IMG/VR virus record: IMGVR_UViG_3300035184_000715
Coordinates: 1-38,096 of that record
Length of the DNA: 38,096 bases
Direction: 5' to 3' (one strand)
From: a virus
The translations under genes and the position numbers were made by a program. The notes below the pieces were generated by a model, which worked only from the letters and a program-made list of their open reading frames with translations, did no database searches and had not been told where the DNA came from. The number at the start of each line of letters is the position of its first letter. The first letter of the stretch is position 1. Below are positions 18,163 through 38,096 of the stretch, one piece after another.

Positions 18163-19320
18163 ATGCCACGACTTAGAATACTACCTAGCCGCAGGGCTAA
18201 GAAATCACAACCAACGCAAGTAGCCTCCTATGCTACAGGAGGAAACCTTCCTTCAAACCCGTTAAATAAATTTATGTCTTCTGATCCCCCTAAAACAGAA
18301 TGGTCAGGAACATATAAAGCAGACGGGACAAAAGAAACGCATGATACTCTTCTTCCTATGCCTGGTGGTGATGGGTCAGGTGATTTAACTCAAGCTCAAC
18401 TTAGGGTAAAATTCCAAAACCAATCAACTGTAGGAGTTTCTGCTGGAGTAATTACAAATTATCACAAAGGAAACAATAGCGCTACTTTAGCAGCCCCTAT
18501 AGATAATAAATGGAGGATGAAAGGGTTTCACAAACAAAGCGGTCAAGAAATAAATGAAGGTAATATAAGAAAAGAAATAGATGCTAACGCTAAAAGAAAT
18601 GGAGGTAACATAACTAAGTATCTTGAAGGAGGTGGTCTTGAATCTATGGATATAAAGACTACAGAGCTAGATTACGAAAAAAAGCTTGCAGGAGGAGGTA
18701 GAGAAGCTTCTGAGATACCTAATGACGTTACGGAAGAAATAGATGGCGCTGCAGGTAAAACCTTACCTAAAGGAGTAAATTCTTTAATAGACGTAGGAGA
18801 AGCCGGAGGACTAGCTATAATTGAAGGTGTGTCTAACGACCCTAAACACGGAGTAAACAATTCTGAAGAAGCAGCTAAGGGAGCTGTTAAAGGAGCCTCT
18901 ACTGGACTTAAAGTAGGTATGAATCCAGTGTTGATGGCAGCTACTGGAGGATTAAGTGCTCCAATAGGAGCTGCATTAGGTTTGACTACTGGATTAATTG
19001 GAGGAGCTACGGGTGCTACTAAAGCAGATGAAAAATACAATAAAGGATTTAAAGAAGATTATAAAATAACTCAAGGTAAGGAACACCAACAGCTATACGC
19101 TGAAAATGGTGGTCTTATACCTGTAGAATATGGTGGTGGTGGTCAACTTCCTAATGATGACGGTAATTTACCTGGGACTTTTAATGAGTTCCATGGTAAT
19201 ACCCATGAACAAGGAGGGATACAAGTAGGCCCAAACGCTGAAGTAGAAACAGGTGAGGTACGTTGGGAAGATTATATTTTCTCAGATGCGTTATCTCCTT
19301 CTAACTCTTATACAATATAA
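18163..19320 (+). CDS. Cargo (ejection) protein 1
   Basis: A 385-residue, Gly-rich protein. The N-terminus is basic (PRLRILPSRRAKK). Residues 247-286 form a hydrophobic segment with a perfect GxxxGxxxGxxxG zipper at Gly269-273-277-281, suited to helix packing in a membrane. The C-terminus carries FNEFHGNTHEQGGI followed by AEVETGEVRWEDYIFSD, a motif recurring in crAss-like virion cargo proteins. Several GGxL/GGNL turns are scattered through the chain. I infer an internal protein that leaves the capsid with the DNA and helps cross the host envelope. It shares a 25-residue element (about 130-155) with the next protein. The start follows the promoter leader. Confidence 0.7.
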   Translation: MPRLRILPSRRAKKSQPTQVASYATGGNLPSNPLNKFMSSDPPKTEWSGTYKADGTKETHDTLLPMPGGDGSGDLTQAQLRVKFQNQSTVGVSAGVITNYHKGNNSATLAAPIDNKWRMKGFHKQSGQEINEGNIRKEIDANAKRNGGNITKYLEGGGLESMDIKTTELDYEKKLAGGGREASEIPNDVTEEIDGAAGKTLPKGVNSLIDVGEAGGLAIIEGVSNDPKHGVNNSEEAAKGAVKGASTGLKVGMNPVLMAATGGLSAPIGAALGLTTGLIGGATGATKADEKYNKGFKEDYKITQGKEHQQLYAENGGLIPVEYGGGGQLPNDDGNLPGTFNEFHGNTHEQGGIQVGPNAEVETGEVRWEDYIFSDALSPSNSYTI

Positions 19321-24585: not shown

Positions 24586-27500
24586 ATGGGAGTAGAAGTT
24601 AAGCTTGACGCAAACAACCAGCCGGAGAAAGTAAGTAAAAATACAGTTGAAGAAATAAAGGTACCTGCTCCTAGAATAACGGCAGAGGCTACTAATGACA
24701 CTCCTCCGCCTTCTGATCCAGTAACTACAGATAAAGTTAAAAAAGAAGCTCCTGTAAAGCCTTTAGTTTCAACAGCTAGTGTAGCTAATAATATGTTTAA
24801 TACTAGAGAGTTTAAAGCAAACTCAGCGGTAACAACTATACATAGAGAAGGGCTTGACTTAAAAGAAACTGTAGGTAGTATTGGTGACTTTAACATTACT
24901 GATACTGATGTACAAAAAAAATACATAAACTCTTTAGAGAAAGGAGCATATGATGCTGCTATGGCTACCTACCAAAATCAAGGTATTGGCTCTAAAGTTG
25001 GAGGATTCTTAGCTCAAGCAGCTGTAGGAGAAATTGTGCTTGGTACTCTTGAAGCAGCTGGCTATTTGGTAGATATGCAGCAATGGATACCTAGACTACT
25101 GGGGGAAGAAACTGAAGAAGTAGGTAACTTCTTTTCTGACTTAATGGTTGAAGCTAAAGGAGCTGTAAGAGAAGCTGCTCCTATACATATGAATCCATAC
25201 AAGGAAGGCGAAATGGATCCTGGAAGTCTTTCTTGGTGGTTATCTAATGGTGTATCTGTAGCTTCTACTCTTTCCATTTTGATACCTGTAGCAGGTTGGG
25301 CAAGAGGAGCAGCTTTATTAGGTAAAGCAACAAAAATAGCTTCTACTACAGTTAAGGCTACTAAACTAGGAGGTAAATTAAGTAAAGGTAAAGGTAAATT
25401 AACTGCTGGATTATGGCAAGTAACTGGAGCAAAGAAAAGGTTTAACTGGGTAGATGAATTAGTTAAAGAAAAAGGAATTAATACTAAAGCTTTTGGAGCA
25501 GTAAAAGATGCGGTACATAAAGGTATCATATCTAGACACATAGAAGGTATGATGGAGGCTTCTGGTGTTTACCGGGATAAGAAAGCTGAGCTACTAGATA
25601 TGAAAGGAGAAAATGGCTCTCCTTTATATACTGAAGAGGCGGCAGGAATAATGGCTTCTAAAGGAGCTAGTTTAACTTACGCTGCTGACTGGGTTATGTT
25701 ACTACAAGATATAGGGCAATACGCTGCGTTAGGTAGAACTAAAGGATTTATTAAAGCTGCTAAAGACCCAAAGTTAGTTGCTGCAGTTGCCTCAGCTACA
25801 GGTCAAACAATACCTAACCAGTTTCTAAAAAAACTTGCGTACGGTACTTCAAGTTACTCTAAGCAGATGGCAGGGGAAGGGTTTGAGGAAATGTATCAGT
25901 ATATGGCAGCAGAAGAAGGTTCTCATTATGTGGATGTTCTTTCAGGACATTCAGATAAAAGTAACTTCAGTTCTCGTGTAGGTGATTATATGCAAGATTC
26001 AGAGATGTGGACATCTGCATTGTTTGGTGCTTTAGGTGGAGGTGTATTCCAGGCTTTAGGGCCTTCTGTAAGTGCTCTAGCTGGAAAAGTTATGGGTAAG
26101 ACAGAAACTAGATTTACTGAAGAGCAAGCAAGAGTAAACGCAATTATAAAGAGACAGGAGATTTTAAAAAGTCTTGATGTGAGACTAGCGGAAGCAGCTG
26201 AGATGGATAATGATTCTGCTGTTGAAATAGTGCAGCAAGATGTAGCTTTTGAGTTAGCTGTAAATGGGGCTCTTAACGGTAACATGCAAATAGATTTAGA
26301 TGCTTTTGATTCTTTTGCAGCCATGACTCCAGAGGAAGCACAAAAACACGGTATAGGGCCAGAAGCTAAACAAAAGTTAGAGTTTTTCAAAGAATCTTAT
26401 TTAAAAGCAGCTGAAATACTTAAGAAAAACGGGACTGAATTTGCTCCTAATACTGTAGCTGGGATTAGCCATAGTGAATTTATGATTGATGTGCTGGCTA
26501 GTAAAATACCAGGAATAAGAGAAAAAACTAGAGAAGCTATTGAAAAACTAGGGATACTTCATGCTTTAAGTACTGACGGTAAAGCACTAGTAAAATCTGC
26601 TGTAGATATTGCGGGAGGTAGAAGAGCAGTTAAAGGAATGCAGCAGCGAATAAAAGTAGATAAAAATCTTTCAAAAGAAGAGGTAGCTGATATGAAAGCT
26701 AAAATTATTACTGTAGAAGCTGCTTTAGACGCTCAAACAACTGTACTTAATAATACAATTGCGGAGTCTACTACGTTAAATGCAGTAGATAAAGTAGCGC
26801 TAAAAGAAAATTCTCAATACATTAAAACCTTAGAAGGACATTCAGCAGAGTTATACCATGTAAACAACTCAATAGAGAGGCACATGAAAAATATCACTAG
26901 GTTAACTAGTGAAAAAGGACAAGAGGCGGCAGCTAAAACACTAAGAGATCAAATAAACGCTTCTATAGCCCACCTTGACGCGGAAGAAGCAAAGAAAAAA
27001 GAAGAAAGAACTACTAGAGGAGGAGCTAAGCCTGGAGGATTAAGCGGATTTCAATTAGAAAAAGCAATAACAGAAGGAGCAATAGAAGAGTCTAAATTAA
27101 ACGTTGATGAAAAAACAAGGTTAGAGAATCATAGAAATGGGTTACCTGATGATTCTTCTTTAAACGAGGAAACTGGAGAGGTATCTCCGGTAATTACTAT
27201 AAAAAACGTAGCTGAAAAAGTTTCTGAGGGTACAGAATTAAGTGAGGAAGAGTATACTTTCTGGGAGGAAAATGAAGAAGCAATAGATGCGTTAAGTACA
27301 GTTATTGACGGAAACCCTGAGAGCTCTACTGAAGGAGTTGAAACAATACCTACTGCAGAAGAAGGTACAGGACCAAAAAATGTAGCGAAAGCAATTACAC
27401 ATGACGTAGCAGAAACTCCTGAAAACACTCCTCCTAAAACGGAAAGAATAGGAGGTGAGTTTGTTGTGAGAGCAGAAACAGTGGTAATAGGTAAAATGGT

Positions 27501-30500
27501 TCCTAAACTAGCTTGGGCAAGTACAAGTAATAACAGAACTCCTGTAGACCCAGGGGAAGAAGGTGAATTAACTAAACACGACAAAGAAAGAGCAGCTCTA
27601 ACTGAGTTTTTAGAAGGTGACCAGTCCATGGAAGGTATTTACTTCGTTATAGAGATAGATACAGAAAGTGATGCTTGGGGCCAAAAAGCAAATAAAAGCT
27701 GGAAGAGAAAAAAGAAAGATTTTGAAGCAGGGAAACTTCCAGATGATCATGGTAAGATCCCTATGAAAGCTGTGATGTATAGAGATGGAAAACCTCTAGA
27801 GCACCATGGAGAAGCTTTATACATGTTTATACATGATGATAATTTTGCAGGAGGTAGTGCAGAACTAAATGAAGCAAGAGCATTAGAGACTTTAGCGCTC
27901 AAGGAAAAAGCAATTAAAGCAATACAGAAAGGAGAGAATTTAAGATTAGACTTTGATATTAAAACAAGAGGTAACCTTAAAATTGCTACGAATGAAGACG
28001 GTAGTTGGATTAACAGTAATCCAGATGATGTAATTGTAGGTGCCTCAGATTCTGATTGGGTGTATGGCCACAACAGTTATTATCTTGATAGAGTAGACGG
28101 TAAAGGATCTCCAAACGGAGGGTTATCAGCATTCAGTGGTTCAACTGATGGAGGAATATATATTTCAACTAAAGGAGCTAACGGAACCTCTTTTCCTTTA
28201 CGTTTAAGTGTGGATAATATCAGTCCTTCTGAAGCTAATCTAGCATTTGCACTATTAAAAGAAGTGGCGACTAATAACGCATATACTTCAGATGTATCTA
28301 AAGAGGTACTCAAGAAAATGAAGGAGAGTAAAGACCCTAGGATTTCAGAGCTATATAGAGTAATGAAGCTAGATACTGAGGCTATTACAAATAGCGAATT
28401 ACTAAATATGATAGTGTTTGCCGGTAAAAACGCTACACAAGGTAAAGGAAGTTCTCAGCTATGGGTGGATAAAGGTACTTTACATATTGGAGATAAGACA
28501 TACAGTATAGCTGCTTTAGGTACTAAGGAAGCTCAAGTAGAAATAACAACTCATCTAATAGAATTCAGAAAACGTCAAGTTAATGTAGAGATGCTTTCTA
28601 ATAAGGAGTACAAGCAGTATTTAATGGCTACAGGTGTAGTAACCACTAATGCTGCAATTACTCCTACAAAGAGACCGTTTATACAGCCTTCTATTACGTA
28701 CAAAAATCCTATTACTGCTTCTAGTAAACCGGCTGCAGCTAGTAGTAATAACCAATTTAGAGATAATCAAGTTATTCTAAAGGAAGAAACATTTACTCTA
28801 ACTGATGAGGATGGTGGTAAACAGGTAATAACTATACAAACAAATTTAGATGGCTCTTTAAATCCTGCAGAAGTTGAAAATTTTGATGTAGATGGAAATA
28901 GTTTAGGTAGAGGGAAAAGAATTAAACTTGGAGACAATAGTATCATTGTCAGAGATGGCTTAACTGCTGAACAACTAGCAGAGAGTACTTTTGCAGGGGA
29001 TGGGTATGTGATGAGAAAGACAGGGGAGAGAAGTGGAACTGAAGTAAACAACCCTAAAAAAATAGCAGGTCTAACACTTGATCAAAAAAAGAAGTTAGGG
29101 ATAAAGCCAACACACCCTAGTAATGTTGACGCAATCCTTAAAGAAGGGGAGTTAACCGAGCTTAAAGCTCAAAGAGATTGGGCGATAAGTAGATACAAAG
29201 AAGACCTTGCTAGTGGAGATATTACTGAAGCTCAAGCTAATAAACAATTTGCAAGGATAAGAGTAGACTTTGTAGATAACGTTAATAGATTAAATAAAAA
29301 GTATGCGGCTAAACCAGCAACACAACAAACTAGTGATGTCGAGGTAAAAAGAAGTAGAAAAGAGGATTTGAATAATGCTGATTTATTTCATGGTACAGCT
29401 ACTTCAGAGAATGTTTTATCAGGTAAATATGATATTAATTCAGCTTTCACAACAGCAGGGCAAGCAGCAGGTGCAGGTCTTTATTTAACTAATGATAAAA
29501 AGTTAGGAGAAAGGTATTCAGAACAAGCTTTAGAACAGAGAAAAGCAAAAAAATTAGAAGGGGGGAAACCTGAAGTATTGTATTTTAACAGCAAAGATTT
29601 TAACATTGTAAAAAAAGGCAGAATAGGAGAAGAATTATTTAATAAGATTAAAGAAAAATACCCCGAAAATACTAGCATAACTGCTGATACTTTAGCGACA
29701 GATTTATTCAGAGAGTTGGTAAAAATAGATTATGGAATACCTTTTAGTTCATCTTTAGACACTTCTGACATGATACCTGTTATGTTAGAGTTGGGTATAG
29801 ACGGTATAGAAATAGGCCCTCAAACAGTATTGTACAATTTTGAAAAAATTAAAAGTAAAGAAATCAACGCTAAATACGATGCTAAGTTAGCTGCTTTACA
29901 ACCAACACAACAAACTACTGAGGTTGAAAAAGCTGAAATAGCTAAGTTAGAGGGGAGAAGGAAAGAAGAATTAAAAGACTTCAAAGTTGGAAGTACTTTA
30001 AATTTATATGGTTCAACCGGTGTTTTAGAGGATACAGCTGTCATTATTAAAGACAACGGTACAACTTGGAGATTGAAGTATACCTCTGATGGTCACGAAA
30101 TGAACACTGGGAAAACCACTGACCAAGGTATGAACAGCGGGGAAAAAACGCATGGTGTGCGATATACAGTACTGTCGAATGAAGCAGGAATCAACGATAA
30201 ATATGACAAGCTTATAGCTGAAGTAAAAGGAAAGACAGCACAACAAAGTGGTAAAAATGACAATCAATCAGCTATAGACCCTATTACTGTAGCTGAGCAA
30301 GCAGAGATTGATGCTATAATTACCAATGAAGAAGGATCACTGTTTTTCCCTTCAGCTAAAGGATACGCTTTTGACCTGGCTTATGATAATAAAGAAGATC
30401 TAATTGCTCACATTAAAGAAAAGTACGCTATTATACGTGCAGCTGCACCTAAAGCTCCTGTAACTACTTCTGTAAGTGCTTCTAATGTTAGTACCTCTAC

Positions 30501-33500
30501 TAAAGGAACTAAAGTAAAATACAAGCCTAAAGGAAGCAAGCTACCTGCTCAAGAATATAATGTAGCAGGTAAAAAGATAACCAATAGTAAAGGTGTAGAA
30601 GTATACGCTACTGATTCAGTAGATAGAAATAAGATATTTATTGAAGATGCTTTAGCTAACGGAAGAGCAGAGAAAATTGTTCTTACTTCTAAAAATAAAA
30701 ATACAGGTAATACTACAACTAAGACATACTATATTAACAAGAAAGGAAAGGTACTTTCAGAAGTTTCAGGAAAAGAGATTGTACATAAAGCTATAATAGC
30801 TGCGGTTATAGAGAAAGCTACTATTTATAGTTCTCCTTTACCAGCAGCGAAGATTATTAATAGCGAGAAGAAAACGGCATTAAAAGCTAAACGGGATAAG
30901 GATTTAAATAACGTAAAAGACATAGTTACCACTACTGGCGGAAATGAATCTGCTGAACGTGATGCTATGGGTGTATTTGCTCAAGCTACTGATATAGATG
31001 ATTTTAAACAATACATTGAAGAACTAGGTATTGATGAAATGCAAGAAATCATAGAAAAAAGATTAACTGGATATCATCTTACAGATTTTGAAGCAATACG
31101 AGAAAACAGCGTAAGAAAAACTTTAGAGGAAATTAGAGATGGAAGCACGCAATCTATCACTACTACTGTTAAAAATACAGCTGAAATAGACAGGATTAAT
31201 GAGCAATACAGAAAAGAATTAGCTGCTCTAGGGCCAGCACCTGCATTTACTGAAGTAAAAGACCAGACTTTACCTGTAGAAGAAGAAGGAGCTACTACAA
31301 CTTATATACCTGACACATCACTTCCTGTAGCTGAAGATTCTACAGAACTTACAGGAGAAGCTAAAATAAAAGCAGACTTAGCTAAAAGTAAAGGAGAACA
31401 TGGGGCCAGCGCATCTGATTCTGGATTATTTAGTATTGGGAAAGAAACTGAAGGAAATGACTACGCTTCATCTGAAGCAGAGCATTTAAAGTCTCTATTA
31501 CCGGATGATGTAGCTATTGAACTAGTAGACGGGTACGTTAAAATACTAGAAGGAGGATGGTCTGCTGTTGGATTATTCCAACACGGTATGGTTAGACTAT
31601 CTAAAAAAGCTCCAAAAGGTACAGGTTACCATGAGGCTTTCCACGCTGTTTACAGGACTATGACTACAGCGGATGAAAGAATACAGTTACAAAAAGACGC
31701 TAGAAGAATATTCCCTCTAGCAAGCCAAAAGCAATTAGCAGCTCTTGCCAGCCAACATCCTGACATGAGTAAAGAAGACATAGCTGATCTTTATTATGAA
31801 GAGCAGATGGCTGATGAGTTTGGTAGTTATATGTATGGCACAAGTACTCAGGTACTACCTAAACAATTCCCTAAAGGAATTAAAGGGTTCTTTAATAAAT
31901 TATTTAGTTGGATTAATAACGTATTCAGTAATCCTAGGACTGTTAATAGTATTTTCCAGGACATTAAAATGGGTAAGTATAAAAACTCTCCAGTTAATGT
32001 AACAAGAAAAGTGGTTTTTAAAGCTCACAGAAATTACCAGTCAGCAGATGTTCTAGAGATAACTAGAAGTCTGGCTTCTTTTGCAATGAGAGATGTTGAT
32101 GTAATTGAGGATATTGAAAATATTGATTTTGCTAATATTAAAACAAGTTTATCTCAAGCTATTGGACATTATAACTCTATACAAGAAGATATTTTAACTA
32201 GAATAGACGCTACAAACCCAGATGATCAACGGCAATTAGAATACTTAAGAGGTAAAATAGAAGACGCTGCAGAAACAGCAAGTAGGTTAACTAGATTGTA
32301 CGATGAAATATATAAGGAGAATGATATGTTCTTCATAGAAAAAGTTAGAGACTACCTTAGTGAATTTGGAATATCTCCTAAGAAGTTAGCAATAGACGGA
32401 AAAACTAAGGAAGAAAAAGAAGATGAAGACTCAGAGCTTGATGAAGAAACAGGAGGTAATAGCTTACTTAAATTAAGCTCATATGAAGTATCAGGTAAAA
32501 GTACAGCTACTGCTAATATAAAACTACTGATAGCTTTAACTAACAAGGTAGTATATGATGACCAAGGTGACATAGTTAACGAAAGAACAGGGTATTTAAA
32601 ACTACCTACTAAAGCTGATTTCTCTCAGTTATGGAATAAGCTAGAGCAGAATTTACATGGTATTATTGGACACTATGATGCAGGTACTGGTGAGTACATT
32701 GATCCTTATACTTTAATGATAGGTAAATTAAGTCTTATGACTTCAAAGCATCCAGAGTTAGCTCAGATTGTAACTAACTTAGAGAAGTCCTCTGAAATAA
32801 TTCAAACGCAATTTGTAGTTAAGTTCTCTGCTGTAAAAGGAGATTATATTGATCACCTTATTTCAGGTACTGGTTCTGCCCCTATATCTAAAATAACGTC
32901 TGCAGATAACTTTGCTAAAGAAGCAATGCTTATAAGCAAATGGTCAGATAAGTTTGTTAAAATATACAGAACAACAAACCCTACTACAAAAGAACCTATA
33001 TATGATACTGAAAAAATAAAAGCTATTGGCCAACTTATAGCAGCAAGTAAAAAAGCAACAGCAGAGTTTAACAGAGCTTCATTAACTACATCATTTGCTT
33101 CAGAAAAAGCAACTGCTATTAAAGCTAGGAGAGTACTTTTAAACAGTTTGGGTATATATATGCACCCTCAAGCTATAGCTAAGGTTATAGAGAGCTTCCC
33201 TGGAGACGGGTCAGGGTCAGAAGCAACGTATCAAGCAACGCAAATGGCTAAGTTTGATTATAGATTAGATGTTGCTCTTACTGGAATAAAAGCTTTATCT
33301 GGACCTATAGATTTTGATTCTAGTCCTTTAGAAGATGAAACATTTGTAAAAGCATTAGCTGAAGCAGAGGCAGAATTTACTCATGTTATGGGTGAGAATA
33401 TGAAAATCATTGCTGGAGGTAAAAAGGCATGGATATTCCAAAATAATAATTCCGTTACCAAAGCTATACAAAGAATTAAAAATAACGATACTACTTTTAT

Positions 33501-36500
33501 TGATGCGTTATTAGCTACTCCAAACGGTACTAATTCTGTATGGGCAAACGCTTTATCTAATAACCCTAAGCTAAGAGAAGAGCTTGCTACTGGATTATAC
33601 GGTAATTATAGAGATCAAGATTCAGCAGATAAGGGAGATAAAGCAGGAGACCTTAAGACTCCTGATCAGTTTAATGATGTGCTTAACAAATATTTAAATG
33701 GATTTAAAAGTAAAAGCGGTACTGGTTTATACGTAGGTCTAGCTGAAGCTGATAAAGGACAGCAGTGGTACATAAGGGGACCTAAAGTAATAAAGTCTAA
33801 AGTTATTGGAGATAATAAAGGTTCAATGATAGTAGTTGATCCTGGTTCTTTACCGGTTGAAATACTTGCAGGATACTTAGCTGATGAACTTAATAGATGG
33901 CATGCTGCTTATGAGCAAAGATACGGAGAAAATAAAATAGCTGAAGATAAGCAGTTGTTGTATTATCACTATAATGAAAGGGTAAATAAAGAAACTGGAG
34001 AAACAGAAAGAACTGAAGGTAATGCTATGGGTAGTTACTTGTTTCCTAACCTAGACTTTAAAGCTCTTGGGCTTATGGGAGGCGAACGCCCAAATAAGAT
34101 TACTAAAGAAGAATTATTTAAAAACAAAAATGTAGCTGCTGCTTTAGCTGAAATACTCAAGGAAAGAGTAACAGAGGATATAGCTGCTTCTTTAAAGTAC
34201 GGGGTTATAAAGAAGGACGCAAAAACAGGAGCTCTAGCTAATGTTTCTATTGATAAAGATGTTTTACACGGAGAAGCTATACAAGGAACTGATGAAGGTT
34301 CCCGTATTGTTAACGCAGTAGCTAATTATACTGTAAACTCTATAATCGCAAACGTAGAGAATACAAAGATGTTTACTGGTGACCCTGCTTTATACAAGAA
34401 AGGTAAAGGAGACGGGTTTGAGGATTTCCGTAAAAGAATCCCAATGGCTACTTCTTCAGGTAGAGATGCTAGAGTGTTTAAAAACCCAGACGGTACTTGG
34501 GCGGTACGTAGAAAGTATTCTTCTGCGACTACAAAGGACGTAAATAATATGCCTTCTACAGCTTTAAACACAAAAGATAATGAAGACGGTAAACCTAACG
34601 AAAATGTGTCTCTTATAGCAGAAGCTACAGGTATAGATGTTAACACCGTAAAAGAAGTACTTTCTCCTTATAATGAGGTTAACCGTACAGATGCGCAAGC
34701 TTGGATCTCTTTATATGCTTATAAAGAAAGAATGCGGGCTTTTGGTAAATGGACAGGTAAGCATGATATAGCTTATGATAATGTAATGGCAGGAAAACTA
34801 CTACCTGATGAAGTTAAATTATTGGCTATGCCTCTTAAAACAGTCCATTCAGGATTAGAGTTACTGCCTGGAGGTATAATGTCTATGCAGATTAACAAAC
34901 AATCTGAAGCTCCTCTTATACCAGGTATTCATGATGAGACTCCGTTAAAGGCGTTAATGGACTCAATGAAAAAAAACAAAGTAGACCATGTTATTGTTCT
35001 TGACGGTAAGAAAGCAGGAGCCATTGGAACTACAGATATGACTAACGGTAATCACCAACCTGGAACAGCAATAGAACTTAATCCAATAGACTTAGATTAC
35101 TCAAATCTGTACTTACAGCAAGACTTAAGTACTAAAGGAGTAAAGAATACATTGGTAGGTACGCAAATGACTAAAAACCTAATGGGTATAGTTTACCCTG
35201 AGCGTATATATGGAGAAGGAGTAGACGGAATAGCGTTATTAGAAGACTTTAACAGTACTATATCTAAACTTTCTAATATTGGATTAAAAGAGTATCAGAA
35301 AAAGATAGGATTTAATCCTGACACTGGAGAATTAGATCAAAAGAAGTTCCGGGAAGCGTTAGCGAGAGAACTTAAAGATGAGTTTTCAGATAACGTAATT
35401 GATGCAATTCTTGGAGGAGCTGCTTTAGACTCTTTACCTATAAACATAGAGTCCAGGTTAACTTCAATGATAACTAAAGAGGCAGTTAAACTTAAGCAGT
35501 CAGGTGGAGCGTTTGTTCAAATGTCTGACTTTGGCATCATGGGTGCGGAAGTTAATTTAAATGGCCCCGTTAAAGACGGAATTATTTTCTTTGGCGATCC
35601 TACTAAAGAGTTACAGCCAATGACTCTTACTAAAGATAATGGCGGTAAGATAGCTGCTAAAAGAGCCCAGATATTAATACCCCATGGTCCTATATTAAAG
35701 CAGCTTCAAAAAGCTATTGATAAGAAATATGGTAAAGGAACACACTATAAAGATTTAAGCCATAAAGAAATAAATTCTCTTATAGATAAGAAAGCTTTGG
35801 CCGGGCTTATATATAGAATACCAAATCAAGCTCCCGGTTCTAATGATGCTATTGAGATAGCTGGAATACTTCCTCCTGAAATGGGAGATACTATAATAGC
35901 TTACTCTGAAATTACAACTAAAACAGGATCAGATTTTGATATTGATAAAGCATTTGCTATATTCCCTAACCTAAAGTTTGATTCAGTTACTGGGTTAGTT
36001 ACTACAATAAGCGTAAACAACACAAGCAAAGAAGGGTTACAGAACAGAAGAGCAGATTTAATGTCTCAAATGTTACTACATCCTGAAGCATATCTTCAGG
36101 TAATGGCCCCTATAGATTCAGAATGGTTAAAGGAAATGGCCTATGAATTACATCCAGCTGAGACTAAAAAGAAAGACTTAAAGTTTTTTACTGCTACTGA
36201 CCAACTTGAAGCTAAAGCAAGATTTGATAACGCTAAGTCACTAGTTGGAGTTATTGCAGATCAGAGTTCAAATTACATGCTTACACTAAATGAGGTAATA
36301 GCTTTTGAAGGTGTTAATTTAGGGGTAGGAGTAACAAATAGTTACGGGTATTCAGTTATTTCAACAAGAACAGACGAAGAAAATAACCAAATATCAGAAA
36401 CATTAGGGGCATTTATGAATGCAATTGTAGATGCTGCTAAAGATCCTTTCATAACTAGAGCAAACATTAACCAGACAACAGCAGGAGTAGCCTTTATGTT

Positions 36501-38096
36501 AGCTAGAACTGGAGCTAGTAGAGAGTTTATAATGGCTTTCATGGGTTCTCCAGTACTTAAGAAGTATGTGGAAATGTCCCAACTAAGTGAAGGAAGAATA
36601 TCACAGCCTGAACGAGATCCTTTAACAGGTAAAAAACTTACTGTTTTAGATAAAATGGTTAGAGATCTTGATAACGCTGGAGTATATACATCAGGAGCTC
36701 ACTTTAAGAGTAATGCTATTTCTGGGTCTTTTTTAAATCATTTAAGTCCTCCAGCAGGATTAGCTCCAATAAATCAAAATATAGACGTTACAGCAGCTCA
36801 ATTACGTGAATTAATTGAAGATCCTACAGCATCACTAGTAGGACAAGAAAGAAGTGAATCAGATTTAGATATACTAGCTCAATTTATAAGATGGCAAGAA
36901 AGCGCTAAAAAGCTTAACACTTTTATTAGAGTAACTAAAGCAGATGTTAACGGAGCAAGTAGAAGTTTAGTAGCCGCAGGTATAGCTGAAAGAGCAATGA
37001 CTGATATGATACTTGATAATTCATTTACTAACCTAGCTTCTTTTTTAGGGTATGATATAGTAGGCATCTCTAATCAAGCTAATGAGGATTTAGATTCTTC
37101 ACCTCAACAACCTAACTTAACGCCTGCTTTTACAGGTAATGTGTCACAGGAAATGTTTGGAGAAAATGATGTTATGGTATTTGGAGCCAATTCTATTGGA
37201 GGACATGGCCAAGGAGTAGCAGCATTAGCTTATGCTAATACAACAGATAATTACAGAAAATGGAATCCTAATTTAGTTTCTGATATTGAAAGTAAAGTAG
37301 TGGGTGATTTTGCTATTGCAGGTGAAGTAGGTCTTACTACAGGTACTAAAGGTACGGGTTATGGTATAGTTACAAAAAATGCATCTATACAAAACGGAAG
37401 GTTAAAGATAGGTTCTCCTTTAGATTATGTTGAATTAGGATCCCAAGTAGAAGATTTATATGAGACTGCTAGAAAAAACCCTACTAAAACTTTCATAATA
37501 CCTTATAACTCTGATAATAATTTAAATAAGAGCAGTTTAAATCAACTAGCTAATACATTTGGAGGAAGGCAGATTCCATCTAACGTAGTGTTTGGAGATA
37601 AAATGTTAGCTGAAATTAAAAGGATAAAAGGAACTAAAATATTTGAATCTCAACAACTTAATGAAGTTAAATTAGAAGCTACAGACAGAGTAGTTTTTGG
37701 CCACCCTACAATTGGTAAAAGTTACTTAAAAGATAGCGGTAGAAATGATTTTATTTCTTTAGATGATGACTATAGTTCAGAGATTAATGCAGAAGTAGAA
37801 GCTATATCTAAAAAACATAAAGTCACAACTTCTCAAGTTAAAGATGGAGGTAAGGAGGCTTGGAATAAAGCGTATAACGCTAAAATGCAAGCGTTATTTA
37901 ATATAGCTAAAGCTAAAGCTACCAAAGAAGGTAAAACCTTGTTTACTTCTAATACTAATCTACTAAAAACTAATTCTGGAGCTTTTGACAAGGTGATAAA
38001 TCTTTCAGATGTAGAATTTGGGAAAAGAATAGCGGAAAGAGGCGCTAAGTACGACACAAAAGAATGGAAACAGCAGATTAATGAAGCTATATCTAC
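24586..38096 (+). CDS. Giant polyvalent virion RNA polymerase protein (partial, 3' end outside window)
   Basis: One frame stays open from ATG 24586 to the window end, at least 4503 codons, with no internal stop found on reading. Order of parts: a Pro/Lys-rich start; hydrophobic segments at about 138-163 and 214-250; a GEGFEEMYQYM helix (430-440); long helical regions; beta-rich parts at about 960-1450; an ADP-ribosyltransferase-like domain (about 1598-1765); linkers and a small beta domain; a HEAFH zincin (2349-2353); the RNA polymerase core with VDHVIVLDGKKAG (3466), GTQMTK (3525), GGAFVQ (3640) and DFDID (3783-3787); an A1S_2505-like domain (about 4185-4345); and a P-loop domain (Walker A 4372-4379). 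Crassvirales virion polymerases are packaged in the capsid and transcribe early genes after injection. Whether it is processed by proteolysis is unknown. Confidence 0.88.
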   Translation, partial: MGVEVKLDANNQPEKVSKNTVEEIKVPAPRITAEATNDTPPPSDPVTTDKVKKEAPVKPLVSTASVANNMFNTREFKANSAVTTIHREGLDLKETVGSIGDFNITDTDVQKKYINSLEKGAYDAAMATYQNQGIGSKVGGFLAQAAVGEIVLGTLEAAGYLVDMQQWIPRLLGEETEEVGNFFSDLMVEAKGAVREAAPIHMNPYKEGEMDPGSLSWWLSNGVSVASTLSILIPVAGWARGAALLGKATKIASTTVKATKLGGKLSKGKGKLTAGLWQVTGAKKRFNWVDELVKEKGINTKAFGAVKDAVHKGIISRHIEGMMEASGVYRDKKAELLDMKGENGSPLYTEEAAGIMASKGASLTYAADWVMLLQDIGQYAALGRTKGFIKAAKDPKLVAAVASATGQTIPNQFLKKLAYGTSSYSKQMAGEGFEEMYQYMAAEEGSHYVDVLSGHSDKSNFSSRVGDYMQDSEMWTSALFGALGGGVFQALGPSVSALAGKVMGKTETRFTEEQARVNAIIKRQEILKSLDVRLAEAAEMDNDSAVEIVQQDVAFELAVNGALNGNMQIDLDAFDSFAAMTPEEAQKHGIGPEAKQKLEFFKESYLKAAEILKKNGTEFAPNTVAGISHSEFMIDVLASKIPGIREKTREAIEKLGILHALSTDGKALVKSAVDIAGGRRAVKGMQQRIKVDKNLSKEEVADMKAKIITVEAALDAQTTVLNNTIAESTTLNAVDKVALKENSQYIKTLEGHSAELYHVNNSIERHMKNITRLTSEKGQEAAAKTLRDQINASIAHLDAEEAKKKEERTTRGGAKPGGLSGFQLEKAITEGAIEESKLNVDEKTRLENHRNGLPDDSSLNEETGEVSPVITIKNVAEKVSEGTELSEEEYTFWEENEEAIDALSTVIDGNPESSTEGVETIPTAEEGTGPKNVAKAITHDVAETPENTPPKTERIGGEFVVRAETVVIGKMVPKLAWASTSNNRTPVDPGEEGELTKHDKERAALTEFLEGDQSMEGIYFVIEIDTESDAWGQKANKSWKRKKKDFEAGKLPDDHGKIPMKAVMYRDGKPLEHHGEALYMFIHDDNFAGGSAELNEARALETLALKEKAIKAIQKGENLRLDFDIKTRGNLKIATNEDGSWINSNPDDVIVGASDSDWVYGHNSYYLDRVDGKGSPNGGLSAFSGSTDGGIYISTKGANGTSFPLRLSVDNISPSEANLAFALLKEVATNNAYTSDVSKEVLKKMKESKDPRISELYRVMKLDTEAITNSELLNMIVFAGKNATQGKGSSQLWVDKGTLHIGDKTYSIAALGTKEAQVEITTHLIEFRKRQVNVEMLSNKEYKQYLMATGVVTTNAAITPTKRPFIQPSITYKNPITASSKPAAASSNNQFRDNQVILKEETFTLTDEDGGKQVITIQTNLDGSLNPAEVENFDVDGNSLGRGKRIKLGDNSIIVRDGLTAEQLAESTFAGDGYVMRKTGERSGTEVNNPKKIAGLTLDQKKKLGIKPTHPSNVDAILKEGELTELKAQRDWAISRYKEDLASGDITEAQANKQFARIRVDFVDNVNRLNKKYAAKPATQQTSDVEVKRSRKEDLNNADLFHGTATSENVLSGKYDINSAFTTAGQAAGAGLYLTNDKKLGERYSEQALEQRKAKKLEGGKPEVLYFNSKDFNIVKKGRIGEELFNKIKEKYPENTSITADTLATDLFRELVKIDYGIPFSSSLDTSDMIPVMLELGIDGIEIGPQTVLYNFEKIKSKEINAKYDAKLAALQPTQQTTEVEKAEIAKLEGRRKEELKDFKVGSTLNLYGSTGVLEDTAVIIKDNGTTWRLKYTSDGHEMNTGKTTDQGMNSGEKTHGVRYTVLSNEAGINDKYDKLIAEVKGKTAQQSGKNDNQSAIDPITVAEQAEIDAIITNEEGSLFFPSAKGYAFDLAYDNKEDLIAHIKEKYAIIRAAAPKAPVTTSVSASNVSTSTKGTKVKYKPKGSKLPAQEYNVAGKKITNSKGVEVYATDSVDRNKIFIEDALANGRAEKIVLTSKNKNTGNTTTKTYYINKKGKVLSEVSGKEIVHKAIIAAVIEKATIYSSPLPAAKIINSEKKTALKAKRDKDLNNVKDIVTTTGGNESAERDAMGVFAQATDIDDFKQYIEELGIDEMQEIIEKRLTGYHLTDFEAIRENSVRKTLEEIRDGSTQSITTTVKNTAEIDRINEQYRKELAALGPAPAFTEVKDQTLPVEEEGATTTYIPDTSLPVAEDSTELTGEAKIKADLAKSKGEHGASASDSGLFSIGKETEGNDYASSEAEHLKSLLPDDVAIELVDGYVKILEGGWSAVGLFQHGMVRLSKKAPKGTGYHEAFHAVYRTMTTADERIQLQKDARRIFPLASQKQLAALASQHPDMSKEDIADLYYEEQMADEFGSYMYGTSTQVLPKQFPKGIKGFFNKLFSWINNVFSNPRTVNSIFQDIKMGKYKNSPVNVTRKVVFKAHRNYQSADVLEITRSLASFAMRDVDVIEDIENIDFANIKTSLSQAIGHYNSIQEDILTRIDATNPDDQRQLEYLRGKIEDAAETASRLTRLYDEIYKENDMFFIEKVRDYLSEFGISPKKLAIDGKTKEEKEDEDSELDEETGGNSLLKLSSYEVSGKSTATANIKLLIALTNKVVYDDQGDIVNERTGYLKLPTKADFSQLWNKLEQNLHGIIGHYDAGTGEYIDPYTLMIGKLSLMTSKHPELAQIVTNLEKSSEIIQTQFVVKFSAVKGDYIDHLISGTGSAPISKITSADNFAKEAMLISKWSDKFVKIYRTTNPTTKEPIYDTEKIKAIGQLIAASKKATAEFNRASLTTSFASEKATAIKARRVLLNSLGIYMHPQAIAKVIESFPGDGSGSEATYQATQMAKFDYRLDVALTGIKALSGPIDFDSSPLEDETFVKALAEAEAEFTHVMGENMKIIAGGKKAWIFQNNNSVTKAIQRIKNNDTTFIDALLATPNGTNSVWANALSNNPKLREELATGLYGNYRDQDSADKGDKAGDLKTPDQFNDVLNKYLNGFKSKSGTGLYVGLAEADKGQQWYIRGPKVIKSKVIGDNKGSMIVVDPGSLPVEILAGYLADELNRWHAAYEQRYGENKIAEDKQLLYYHYNERVNKETGETERTEGNAMGSYLFPNLDFKALGLMGGERPNKITKEELFKNKNVAAALAEILKERVTEDIAASLKYGVIKKDAKTGALANVSIDKDVLHGEAIQGTDEGSRIVNAVANYTVNSIIANVENTKMFTGDPALYKKGKGDGFEDFRKRIPMATSSGRDARVFKNPDGTWAVRRKYSSATTKDVNNMPSTALNTKDNEDGKPNENVSLIAEATGIDVNTVKEVLSPYNEVNRTDAQAWISLYAYKERMRAFGKWTGKHDIAYDNVMAGKLLPDEVKLLAMPLKTVHSGLELLPGGIMSMQINKQSEAPLIPGIHDETPLKALMDSMKKNKVDHVIVLDGKKAGAIGTTDMTNGNHQPGTAIELNPIDLDYSNLYLQQDLSTKGVKNTLVGTQMTKNLMGIVYPERIYGEGVDGIALLEDFNSTISKLSNIGLKEYQKKIGFNPDTGELDQKKFREALARELKDEFSDNVIDAILGGAALDSLPINIESRLTSMITKEAVKLKQSGGAFVQMSDFGIMGAEVNLNGPVKDGIIFFGDPTKELQPMTLTKDNGGKIAAKRAQILIPHGPILKQLQKAIDKKYGKGTHYKDLSHKEINSLIDKKALAGLIYRIPNQAPGSNDAIEIAGILPPEMGDTIIAYSEITTKTGSDFDIDKAFAIFPNLKFDSVTGLVTTISVNNTSKEGLQNRRADLMSQMLLHPEAYLQVMAPIDSEWLKEMAYELHPAETKKKDLKFFTATDQLEAKARFDNAKSLVGVIADQSSNYMLTLNEVIAFEGVNLGVGVTNSYGYSVISTRTDEENNQISETLGAFMNAIVDAAKDPFITRANINQTTAGVAFMLARTGASREFIMAFMGSPVLKKYVEMSQLSEGRISQPERDPLTGKKLTVLDKMVRDLDNAGVYTSGAHFKSNAISGSFLNHLSPPAGLAPINQNIDVTAAQLRELIEDPTASLVGQERSESDLDILAQFIRWQESAKKLNTFIRVTKADVNGASRSLVAAGIAERAMTDMILDNSFTNLASFLGYDIVGISNQANEDLDSSPQQPNLTPAFTGNVSQEMFGENDVMVFGANSIGGHGQGVAALAYANTTDNYRKWNPNLVSDIESKVVGDFAIAGEVGLTTGTKGTGYGIVTKNASIQNGRLKIGSPLDYVELGSQVEDLYETARKNPTKTFIIPYNSDNNLNKSSLNQLANTFGGRQIPSNVVFGDKMLAEIKRIKGTKIFESQQLNEVKLEATDRVVFGHPTIGKSYLKDSGRNDFISLDDDYSSEINAEVEAISKKHKVTTSQVKDGGKEAWNKAYNAKMQALFNIAKAKATKEGKTLFTSNTNLLKTNSGAFDKVINLSDVEFGKRIAERGAKYDTKEWKQQINEAIS
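29318..29332 (+). repeat. 15-bp direct repeat, left copy
   Basis: CAACACAACAAACTA, encoding part of an ATQQTS linker, lies just before the ADP-ribosyltransferase-like domain. An identical copy follows it exactly 585 bases (195 codons) later in the same frame. Confidence 0.85.
29377..29880 (+). other. ADP-ribosyltransferase-like domain within the giant protein
   Basis: Residues about 1598-1765. The order of motifs matches ART domains of phage polyvalent proteins: DLFHGTA with His1602, AGLYLTND with Tyr1633 after a GAG turn, a following Tyr (ERYSEQ), then LGIDGIEI and a closing TVLYNFEKIKS strand. These are the NAD-binding His and Tyr of the H-Y-E/Q class. Gln1746 sits where I would expect the catalytic Glu in the usual 'EYVVFDPxxIKS' ending, so activity may be altered. 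The target would be a host protein or nucleic acid, unknown. Confidence 0.65.
29903..29917 (+). repeat. 15-bp direct repeat, right copy
   Basis: Identical to 29318-29332 and in the same reading frame (PTQQTT). The surrounding linker (INAKYDAKLAALQPTQQTTEVE) is also similar to that at the left copy (LNKKYAAKPATQQTSDVEV), so about 20 residues are duplicated around the domain. Confidence 0.85.
31513..31845 (+). other. Zincin metallopeptidase domain within the giant protein
   Basis: Residues about 2310-2420. HEAFH (2349-2353) provides two zinc-binding His and the general-base Glu; YEEQMADEFGSY (from about 2404) offers the downstream Glu ligand in the gluzincin style. The preceding strands (GMVRLSKKAPKGTGY) match the usual approach to the active-site helix. 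It lies directly before the polymerase core, so processing of the polyprotein or attack on host proteins are both possible. Confidence 0.8.
32000..37060 (+). other. Virion RNA polymerase core within the giant protein
   Basis: Residues about 2470-4158; boundaries are approximate. The catalytic metal-binding motif is GSDFDIDK, with Asp3783, 3785 and 3787 (35932-35946), the DxDxD loop of the second double-psi beta-barrel in crAss-like and YonO-type single-chain polymerases. Upstream conserved segments are VDHVIVLDGKKAG, YLQQDLSTKG, VGTQMTKN and GGAFVQMSDFG. The enzyme should make early phage RNA from injected DNA without the host polymerase. Confidence 0.88.
37138..37620 (+). other. A1S_2505-like domain within the giant protein
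   Basis: Residues about 4185-4345. The signature is VMVFGANSIGGHGQGVAALA (4196-4215), then GTGYGIVTKNASI, a VEDLYETARKNPTKTFIIPYN segment and a closing PSNVVF strand. This order matches the phage-associated family typified by A1S_2505 ('FGSNxxGxHGxGAA ... YAIPTK ... FxxxAxxxPxxxFxVT'). Its biochemical role is not established; a nucleotide- or ADP-ribose-type ligand is a guess from the Gly-rich loop. Confidence 0.6.
37669..38096 (+). other. P-loop kinase-like domain (cut by window end)
   Basis: From about residue 4362. RVVFGHPTIGKSYL gives a Walker A motif (Gly4372, Gly4377, Lys4378, Ser4379). FISLDDDY about 20 residues on suits an acidic Mg-binding or substrate position, and KTLFTSNTNLLK is a later core strand as in small nucleotide-kinase-like folds. 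Comparable P-loop domains terminate other crAss-like giant proteins, in my recollection. Substrate unknown; the C-terminal end is outside the window. Confidence 0.65.

Follow-up and report, generated by a model that had tools for sequence, protein, structure and literature searches.

In-frame linker DNA delimits domain cassettes in giant virion RNA polymerase proteins of crAss-like phages and probably serves their exchange

Results

The giant polyprotein of the window

The DNA analyzed, referred to here as the window, is a 38,096-nt virus record of IMG/VR and derives from a crAss-like phage. It carries one giant open reading frame (ORF), the main parts of which are listed below.

24586-38094, + strand: giant ORF of 4503 codons running off the contig end, encoding a crAss-like virion RNA polymerase polyprotein
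27508-28710, + strand: conserved region (aa 975-1375), directly upstream of the variable cargo region, 33% identical to L009 and present in L010, L012 and L039
28711-31119, + strand: variable cargo region (aa 1376-2178), delimited by tblastn anchors
31453-31995, + strand: zincin-like metallopeptidase region with the motif GYHEAFHAVYR, kept in relatives
33352-37065, + strand: crAss-like virion RNA polymerase, homologous to Cellulophaga phage phi14:2 g066

An N-terminal RNAP-associated region, which resembles crAssphage proteins annotated 'RNAP associated protein fused to zincin protease', is followed in the giant ORF by the conserved region, the variable cargo region, the zincin and the polymerase. 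The polymerase is 30% identical to phi14:2 g066 over ~1,200 aa (E 1e-90) and contains the catalytic DFDID motif at 35932-35946 (aa 3783); the window protein has both features by which a Crassvirales virion RNA polymerase is recognized, namely homology to phi14:2 g066 and DFDID. Judged by its homology to the phi14:2 polymerase the gene may be essential, and the g066 homology and proteomics annotation, together with the cargo described for crassviruses (PMC10172136), suggest that the protein is carried in the virion and ejected. A zincin motif, a polymerase, an ART-like block and a phrog_2072 module are combined in this one protein, as in polyvalent proteins. A Pfam scan of the giant protein gave no match and a megablast search of the window against phages gave no DNA match; the best viral relatives are 30-40% identical in amino acid sequence in the polymerase.

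The size of the variable region differs widely among relatives, from ~26 aa in L009 to ~454 in L012, ~1093 in L010 and ~2136 in L039 (the last three slots taken as far as the zincin), compared with ~800 aa in the window.

Other differences were seen along the protein. In L012 and L010 the slot before the zincin contains, by eye, PD-(D/E)XK-nuclease-like sequence (GTLDLAAIDKKGELHIIDFK; GEVDLLSVDKEGYVRIYDVK) at the place taken by the ART-like block in the window. The alignments of L011, L012 and L039 to the window have large gaps in the polymerase region, which suggests inserts of ~0.5-1.5 kb in these relatives. Near the C-terminal end of the window protein lies a phrog_2072 domain (VFGANSIGGHGQG), whose DNA at 37123-37623 is ~75% identical to 11033-11533 of L039; the L039 copy sits elsewhere, inside the polymerase region and without the hinge or tags described below, suggesting a transfer of the domain to a different site. 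In L070, a separate ORF of 1122 aa (at 19042) contains a segment matching the final ~142 residues of the giant ORF (37672-38094; E ~1e-50).

The 15-bp repeat and the two hinge copies

A preliminary description of this DNA had reported identical 15-bp direct repeats, 585 bases apart and in frame on both sides of an ART-like domain, inside a duplicated linker. The positions proved exact. The sequence CAACACAACAAACTA occurs on the + strand at 29318-29332 and 29903-29917, its sole two matches in the window at up to two mismatches, with 585 nt (195 codons) between the copies and both in the same frame of the giant ORF. The duplicated linker was also found, as a 44-nt, 77%-identical repeat in which the copies are embedded.

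The bare 15-mer repeat is not beyond chance. An in-frame 15-mer repeat arose in 118 of 300 codon shuffles of the giant ORF, and a second one, evidently by chance, is present in the ORF itself (AGAAGAATTATTTAA, at 29628/34107). Given the two peptides, the copies stayed identical in 24 of 2000 synonymous permutations. The repeat is significant because its copies match a 27-nt consensus derived from other phages, CCAACACAACAAACTAGTGAGGTTGAA, which encodes PTQQTSEVE and is referred to here as the hinge. The mismatches number 4/27 for the first copy and 1/27 for the second, and the next-best match in the window has 9. A target-site duplication was considered and rejected, since both copies match this external consensus, and the repeat is better explained by two linkers belonging to a shared family than by a single duplicating event.

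Cassettes of related giant proteins are also enclosed by a second pair of delimiters, the start tag IEAKKADIERRRQEEL and the end tag INAKYDAELAALE; the window contains this pair as well. The features of the variable region that concern hinges, tags and modules are as follows.

28726-29100, + strand: module M1, phmmer domain E 4e-8 to 2e-7 to a module near a PTQQTSEV hinge in L218/L226
29272-29376, + strand: linker 1, made of a degenerate end tag (VNRLNKKYAAKP), a hinge and a degenerate start tag (SDVEVKRSRKEDL)
29317-29343, + strand: hinge copy 1, GCAACACAACAAACTAGTGATGTCGAG, holding the 15-mer at 29318-29332
29318-29902, + strand: cassette of 585 nt (195 codons), hinge to hinge, with the ART-like domain, delimited by the repeat spacing and by the cassette logic of relatives
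29347-29595, + strand: core of the ART-like domain (LFHGT ... AGLYLT ... RYSEQ), matching phrog_4700
29863-29898, + strand: end tag INAKYDAKLAAL (ATCAACGCTAAATACGATGCTAAGTTAGCTGCTTTA), terminating the ART cassette, 37.9 bits (scored at 29845-29904)
29902-29928, + strand: hinge copy 2, CCAACACAACAAACTACTGAGGTTGAA, holding the 15-mer at 29903-29917
29920-29979, + strand: start tag EVEKAEIAKLEGRRKEELKD of the following cassette, 13.7 bits
30172-30231, + strand: further end tag (GINDKYDKLIAEVKG), followed by TAQQSG, 22.4 bits
30484-30774, + strand: module M6, phmmer E 5e-14 to 5e-10, with homologues in L057, L061, L086 and L215/L224
31177-31236, + strand: further end tag (RINEQYRKELAALGP), 25.2 bits

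No reversed sequence scored above 14 bits for the end tag, and the start tag at 29920-29979 is the top position in the ORF. The degenerate tags of linker 1 score 4.8 bits (end tag) and -1.9 bits (start tag) and rank 5th and 3rd, respectively, among all ORF positions. With an in-frame hinge on both sides of the domain, the block has the layout of a hinge-delimited cassette. The M6 homologues of L215/L224 stand directly after a PTQQTSEVE hinge.

The label 'ART-like' given in the preliminary description is plausible but weak. The block matches the PHROG family phrog_4700 (E = 1.8e-5), members of which in the giant proteins of related phages match Pfam ART-PolyVal, and residues H23, G24, G52 and Y54 are conserved, the third catalytic residue not being assignable. 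On the other hand, neither PF18760 (ART-PolyVal, up to E 10) nor the other Pfam ART models matched the window block directly, and an AlphaFold model of the block alone reached a pLDDT of 41, too poor for a fold search. A PDB sequence search of the block led to designed PPR repeat proteins; these matches were judged spurious, many weak repeat matches having been summed. Relatives of the window region and of the ART block were also sought with single-protein searches, which gave either no match or one to a linker.

Hinges and tags in other crAss-like phages

A scan of the whole viral collection of IMG/VR with the pattern CAACACAACAAACTASTGR gave 45 stretches, and the codon frame was identical in 45/45. 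These stretches read (P/S/T/A)TQQT(S/T) and lie in ORFs of 338-4101 aa. When the peptide PTQQT(S/T)EV was scanned with any codons, 29 stretches were found. In 16 contexts sharing neither flank, the exact coding ACACAACAAACT occurred 15 times, against 2.3 expected from their own codon usage; CCA was used in 16/16 (5.8 expected) and AGT in 15/16 (4.6 expected). Among 650 long ORFs, in which a match was defined as at most 7/27 mismatches, there were 102 in-frame hinges compared with 2, 0 and 0 in the other two sense frames and the antisense. At least two hinges were present in 32 of these ORFs, typically 70-190 codons apart and forming arrays of two to four. A crAss-like polymerase was encoded in 34 of the 40 hinge-bearing records tested. 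The hinge is not universal in Crassvirales, since it was present in only 8 of 79 polymerase-picked loci; some linker was found in 16 of the 79.

A scan of viral contigs with INAKYDA gave matches in many giant ORFs, and the end tag had 147 matches compared with 1 in reversed ORFs, the start tag 86 compared with 0 in the reversed control. These loci were gathered by the end tag, which biases counts of co-occurrence but affects neither the reversed controls nor the chimeras. The codons of the end tag were fixed by position in 46 clusters of unrelated ORFs: ATC was used in 27 (4.3 expected) and CTA in 19 (3.8 expected), and of the alanines the first was GCT in 42 (25 expected) and the second GCA in 32 (15.6 expected). 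The start tag usually stands ahead of a module; of 12 start tags that follow an end tag, 10 do so at a distance of 1-11 residues. The tag-bounded modules are mostly 36-290 residues long. A crAss-like polymerase was encoded in 25 of 30 tag records, and the end tag is present in the isolate genome phi14:2. A combined tag query against named phages gave no match, possibly as a result of the low-complexity filter.

In L161, L184 and L203 a single ORF carries an array of two or three end tags together with start tags, and one pair in L161 is spaced 131 codons apart. In GTDB genomes, end-tag DNA was found in only three contigs (L253-L255), assigned to Cloacimonadota, Bacteroidia and a Polynucleobacter MAG; these are perhaps phage contigs binned with hosts.

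Chimeric junctions and shared cassettes

The sequence TYAYLKQ...GVVSK precedes PTQQTSEVE in L215, L224, L243 and L234, and the hinge is followed by TITYTPGG in the first three and by YPVDTNPAA in L234. The same YPVDTNPAA follows the hinge in L212, L217 and L237, where the upstream sequence is QSYLDFK...PKVIK, and L231 has nearly the same upstream sequence as these three and different sequence after the hinge. Flank sharing was scored from DNA identity in the 210 nt to either side of the hinge, and 37 pairs of hinges had a common flank: 11 shared both flanks, 12 the upstream flank only and 14 the downstream flank only. In L215/L224 the identity is 98-100% in 60-nt bins up to the hinge and the sequences are unrelated beyond it.

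Four distinct cassettes of 81-171 codons are common from hinge to hinge to otherwise unrelated neighbours: those of L212/L231 (171 codons, 90% identity), L234/L224 (137 codons, 84%), L242/L061 (160 codons, 96%) and L241/L244 (81 codons, 79%). Cassettes found elsewhere correspond to single domains, DUF7831 and phrog_2072 being examples. Of 221 homology boundaries, 25 lay at a hinge in both partners, compared with a mean of 3.9 and a maximum of 16 in 500 random placements; most of the remaining boundaries resemble gradual divergence in conserved regions.

Breaks at the tags were identified from windowed identity and anchored alignments and are given as individual cases only, as counts include other protein families; plain protein alignments were too weak for testing homology boundaries at end tags. 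L183 and L198 have in common a cassette bounded by a start tag and an end tag, and their sequences are unrelated on both sides of it. The pairs L155/L181, L147/L182 and L173/L203 diverge directly after the end tag, and L016/L184 also breaks at the tag.

The preliminary description had proposed modular exchange at the repeated in-frame linkers and named presence, absence or replacement of the block among relatives as support for it. Replacement of a cassette is seen in the pair L057/L061: the 600 nt upstream are 93-100% identical and the downstream flanks 97%, and between the hinges the two carry different cassettes (151 and 269 codons, respectively). The window itself is without a close relative. 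Retention of the block by all close relatives with diverged flanks, the outcome said to speak against exchange, was not seen in the collections, where the nearest relatives (30-40% identical in the polymerase) lack the ART-like block and one of them lacks nearly the whole ~800-aa region. The relatives carry a family of linkers alike at the DNA level and kept in a single frame, with chimeric junctions and with cassettes shared from hinge to hinge, and so give the proposed exchange strong support.

Discussion

These results are best explained if the 195-codon block is a domain cassette of a crAss-like virion-polymerase polyprotein and the shared linker DNA supplies the in-frame homology for exchange, a reading to which we assign a probability of about 0.8. 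A linker consists of an end tag (a INAKYDAELAALE-like helix), a hinge (CCAACACAACAAACTAGTGAGGTTGAA) or both, often with a IEAKKADIERRRQEEL-like start tag after it. General homologous or annealing recombination, of phage or host, could act between linkers of co-infecting phages or within one gene, and would swap, add or remove whole domains with the reading frame kept. Because the linkers are nearly identical in DNA and always in the same frame, domains could be exchanged without a frame break, and exchange would in turn homogenize the linkers. The products would be virion-carried proteins delivered with the DNA, so that a cassette swap would alter the set of injected domains, among which the ART-like domain may be an effector. 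No homologue of the ART cassette of the window was found elsewhere in the collections, and its own movement by linker exchange is inferred. General recombination between shared linkers is the simplest account of the data, and the enzyme is probably one of general recombination; ERF was found in 1 of 20 mostly incomplete records (that of L009), and searches of the related records, most of them fragments, for RecT and Rad52 found none.

The linkers might be alike purely from selection on the protein, as a flexible hinge or a zincin cleavage site, or from low-complexity convergence, recombination having no special role. They are T/Q/P-rich and helical, the polyprotein has a zincin motif, and proteolytic release of domains has been proposed for polyvalent proteins (PMC5512222). 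However, codons are fixed by position far beyond usage, as illustrated by the GCT and GCA alanines within a single tag, and relatives have chimeric flanks at the hinge and share cassettes without sharing the neighbouring sequence. This explanation is therefore improbable, and in its pure form it is ruled out by the position-specific codons; a processing role at the linkers may coexist with exchange, yet it leaves the DNA identity unexplained. It is hardly credible that the 15-bp repeat arose by chance or as a target-site-type duplication and has no wider meaning: bare in-frame 15-mer repeats are indeed common in the shuffles, and the ORF has a second one, but the two copies agree with a consensus taken from outside the window and adjoin tags of the same linker family.

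Misassembly at a repeated 27-nt sequence has to be considered as a source of the junctions, since the records are mostly metagenomic contigs and the breaks lie in a sequence that phages have in common. Against it, identical junctions recur across datasets (L212/L217/L237, L215/L224/L243 and L209/L211/L227), and the identity between most shared cassettes has fallen to 79-96%, in contrast to identical reads that were wrongly joined. Typical reads are also longer than a 27-nt repeat, a single contig holds both copies of the window, and an isolate genome, that of phi14:2, contains the end tag, all of which makes misassembly very improbable. The short conserved 27-nt core, the strict frame and the presence of two to four hinges per ORF could instead point to a dedicated site-specific system, a recombinase or homing-like enzyme acting on the hinge. 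We consider this quite improbable, as the very different IEAKKADIERRRQEEL/INAKYDAELAALE pair is equally chimeric, hinges tolerate several mismatches and the searches for RecT, Rad52 and ERF revealed no linked recombinase. A broader proposal, that linker DNA is maintained and spread for promoting in-frame swaps of injected domains as a dedicated cassette-exchange system, possibly with a specific enzyme, is unlikely but can be put forward tentatively; if true, the hinge would be a mobile delimiter with an integron-site-like role inside one open reading frame.

The proteins described here resemble polyvalent proteins (Iyer et al. 2017, PMC5512222) in being large, multidomain and co-delivered with DNA, in their ART, peptidase and nuclease domains and in domain accretion. 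Cassette recombination was raised there as a possibility, but that article describes no shared delimiter DNA (the word 'linker' is absent), whereas here the exchange points are located in the sequence. With the virion RNA polymerase and cargo of crAss-like phages (phi14:2 g066; PMC10172136) they share a homologous polymerase, the DFDID motif and the nature of giant virion-carried, ejected proteins. In phi14:2, however, g066 is a separate 2180-aa protein, while in the window a long variable cargo region and the zincin precede the polymerase in one fused protein, and cassette exchange is not described in PMC10172136. Recent domain shuffling inside phage proteins is also known from the domain mosaicism reported by Smug et al. 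2023 (PMC10684548), whose cases are tail proteins, lysins and replication proteins and who report no recurrent linker DNA, neither 'linker' nor 'crAss' occurring in their article. In polymorphic toxins (PMC3482391) toxin domains are likewise varied through cassette recombination; there, variation mainly concerns the C-terminal toxin, whereas here the cassettes are internal and delimited on both sides.

A related concept is that of conserved boundary sequences, short shared border DNA serving homologous recombination, which is cited in PMC3029335. There the idea applies to borders of genome modules and such sequences are not identifiable at most mosaic boundaries, whereas the hinge is coding, in frame, inside one gene and repeated. 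No description of a recurrent DNA-level coding linker within giant phage genes was found in the literature searched, which mostly leaves out subscription journals.

Conclusions

Boundary sequences occur within the genes for giant proteins of crAss-like phages, where they are invariably in frame and recur as delimiters of single domains. The linker DNA offers a concrete mark for finding injected domains and predicts the boundaries of cassettes. Its reuse suggests how crAss-like phages reshuffle the proteins that they carry into bacteria, and through the linkers the diversification of injected phage proteins becomes a directly testable question.
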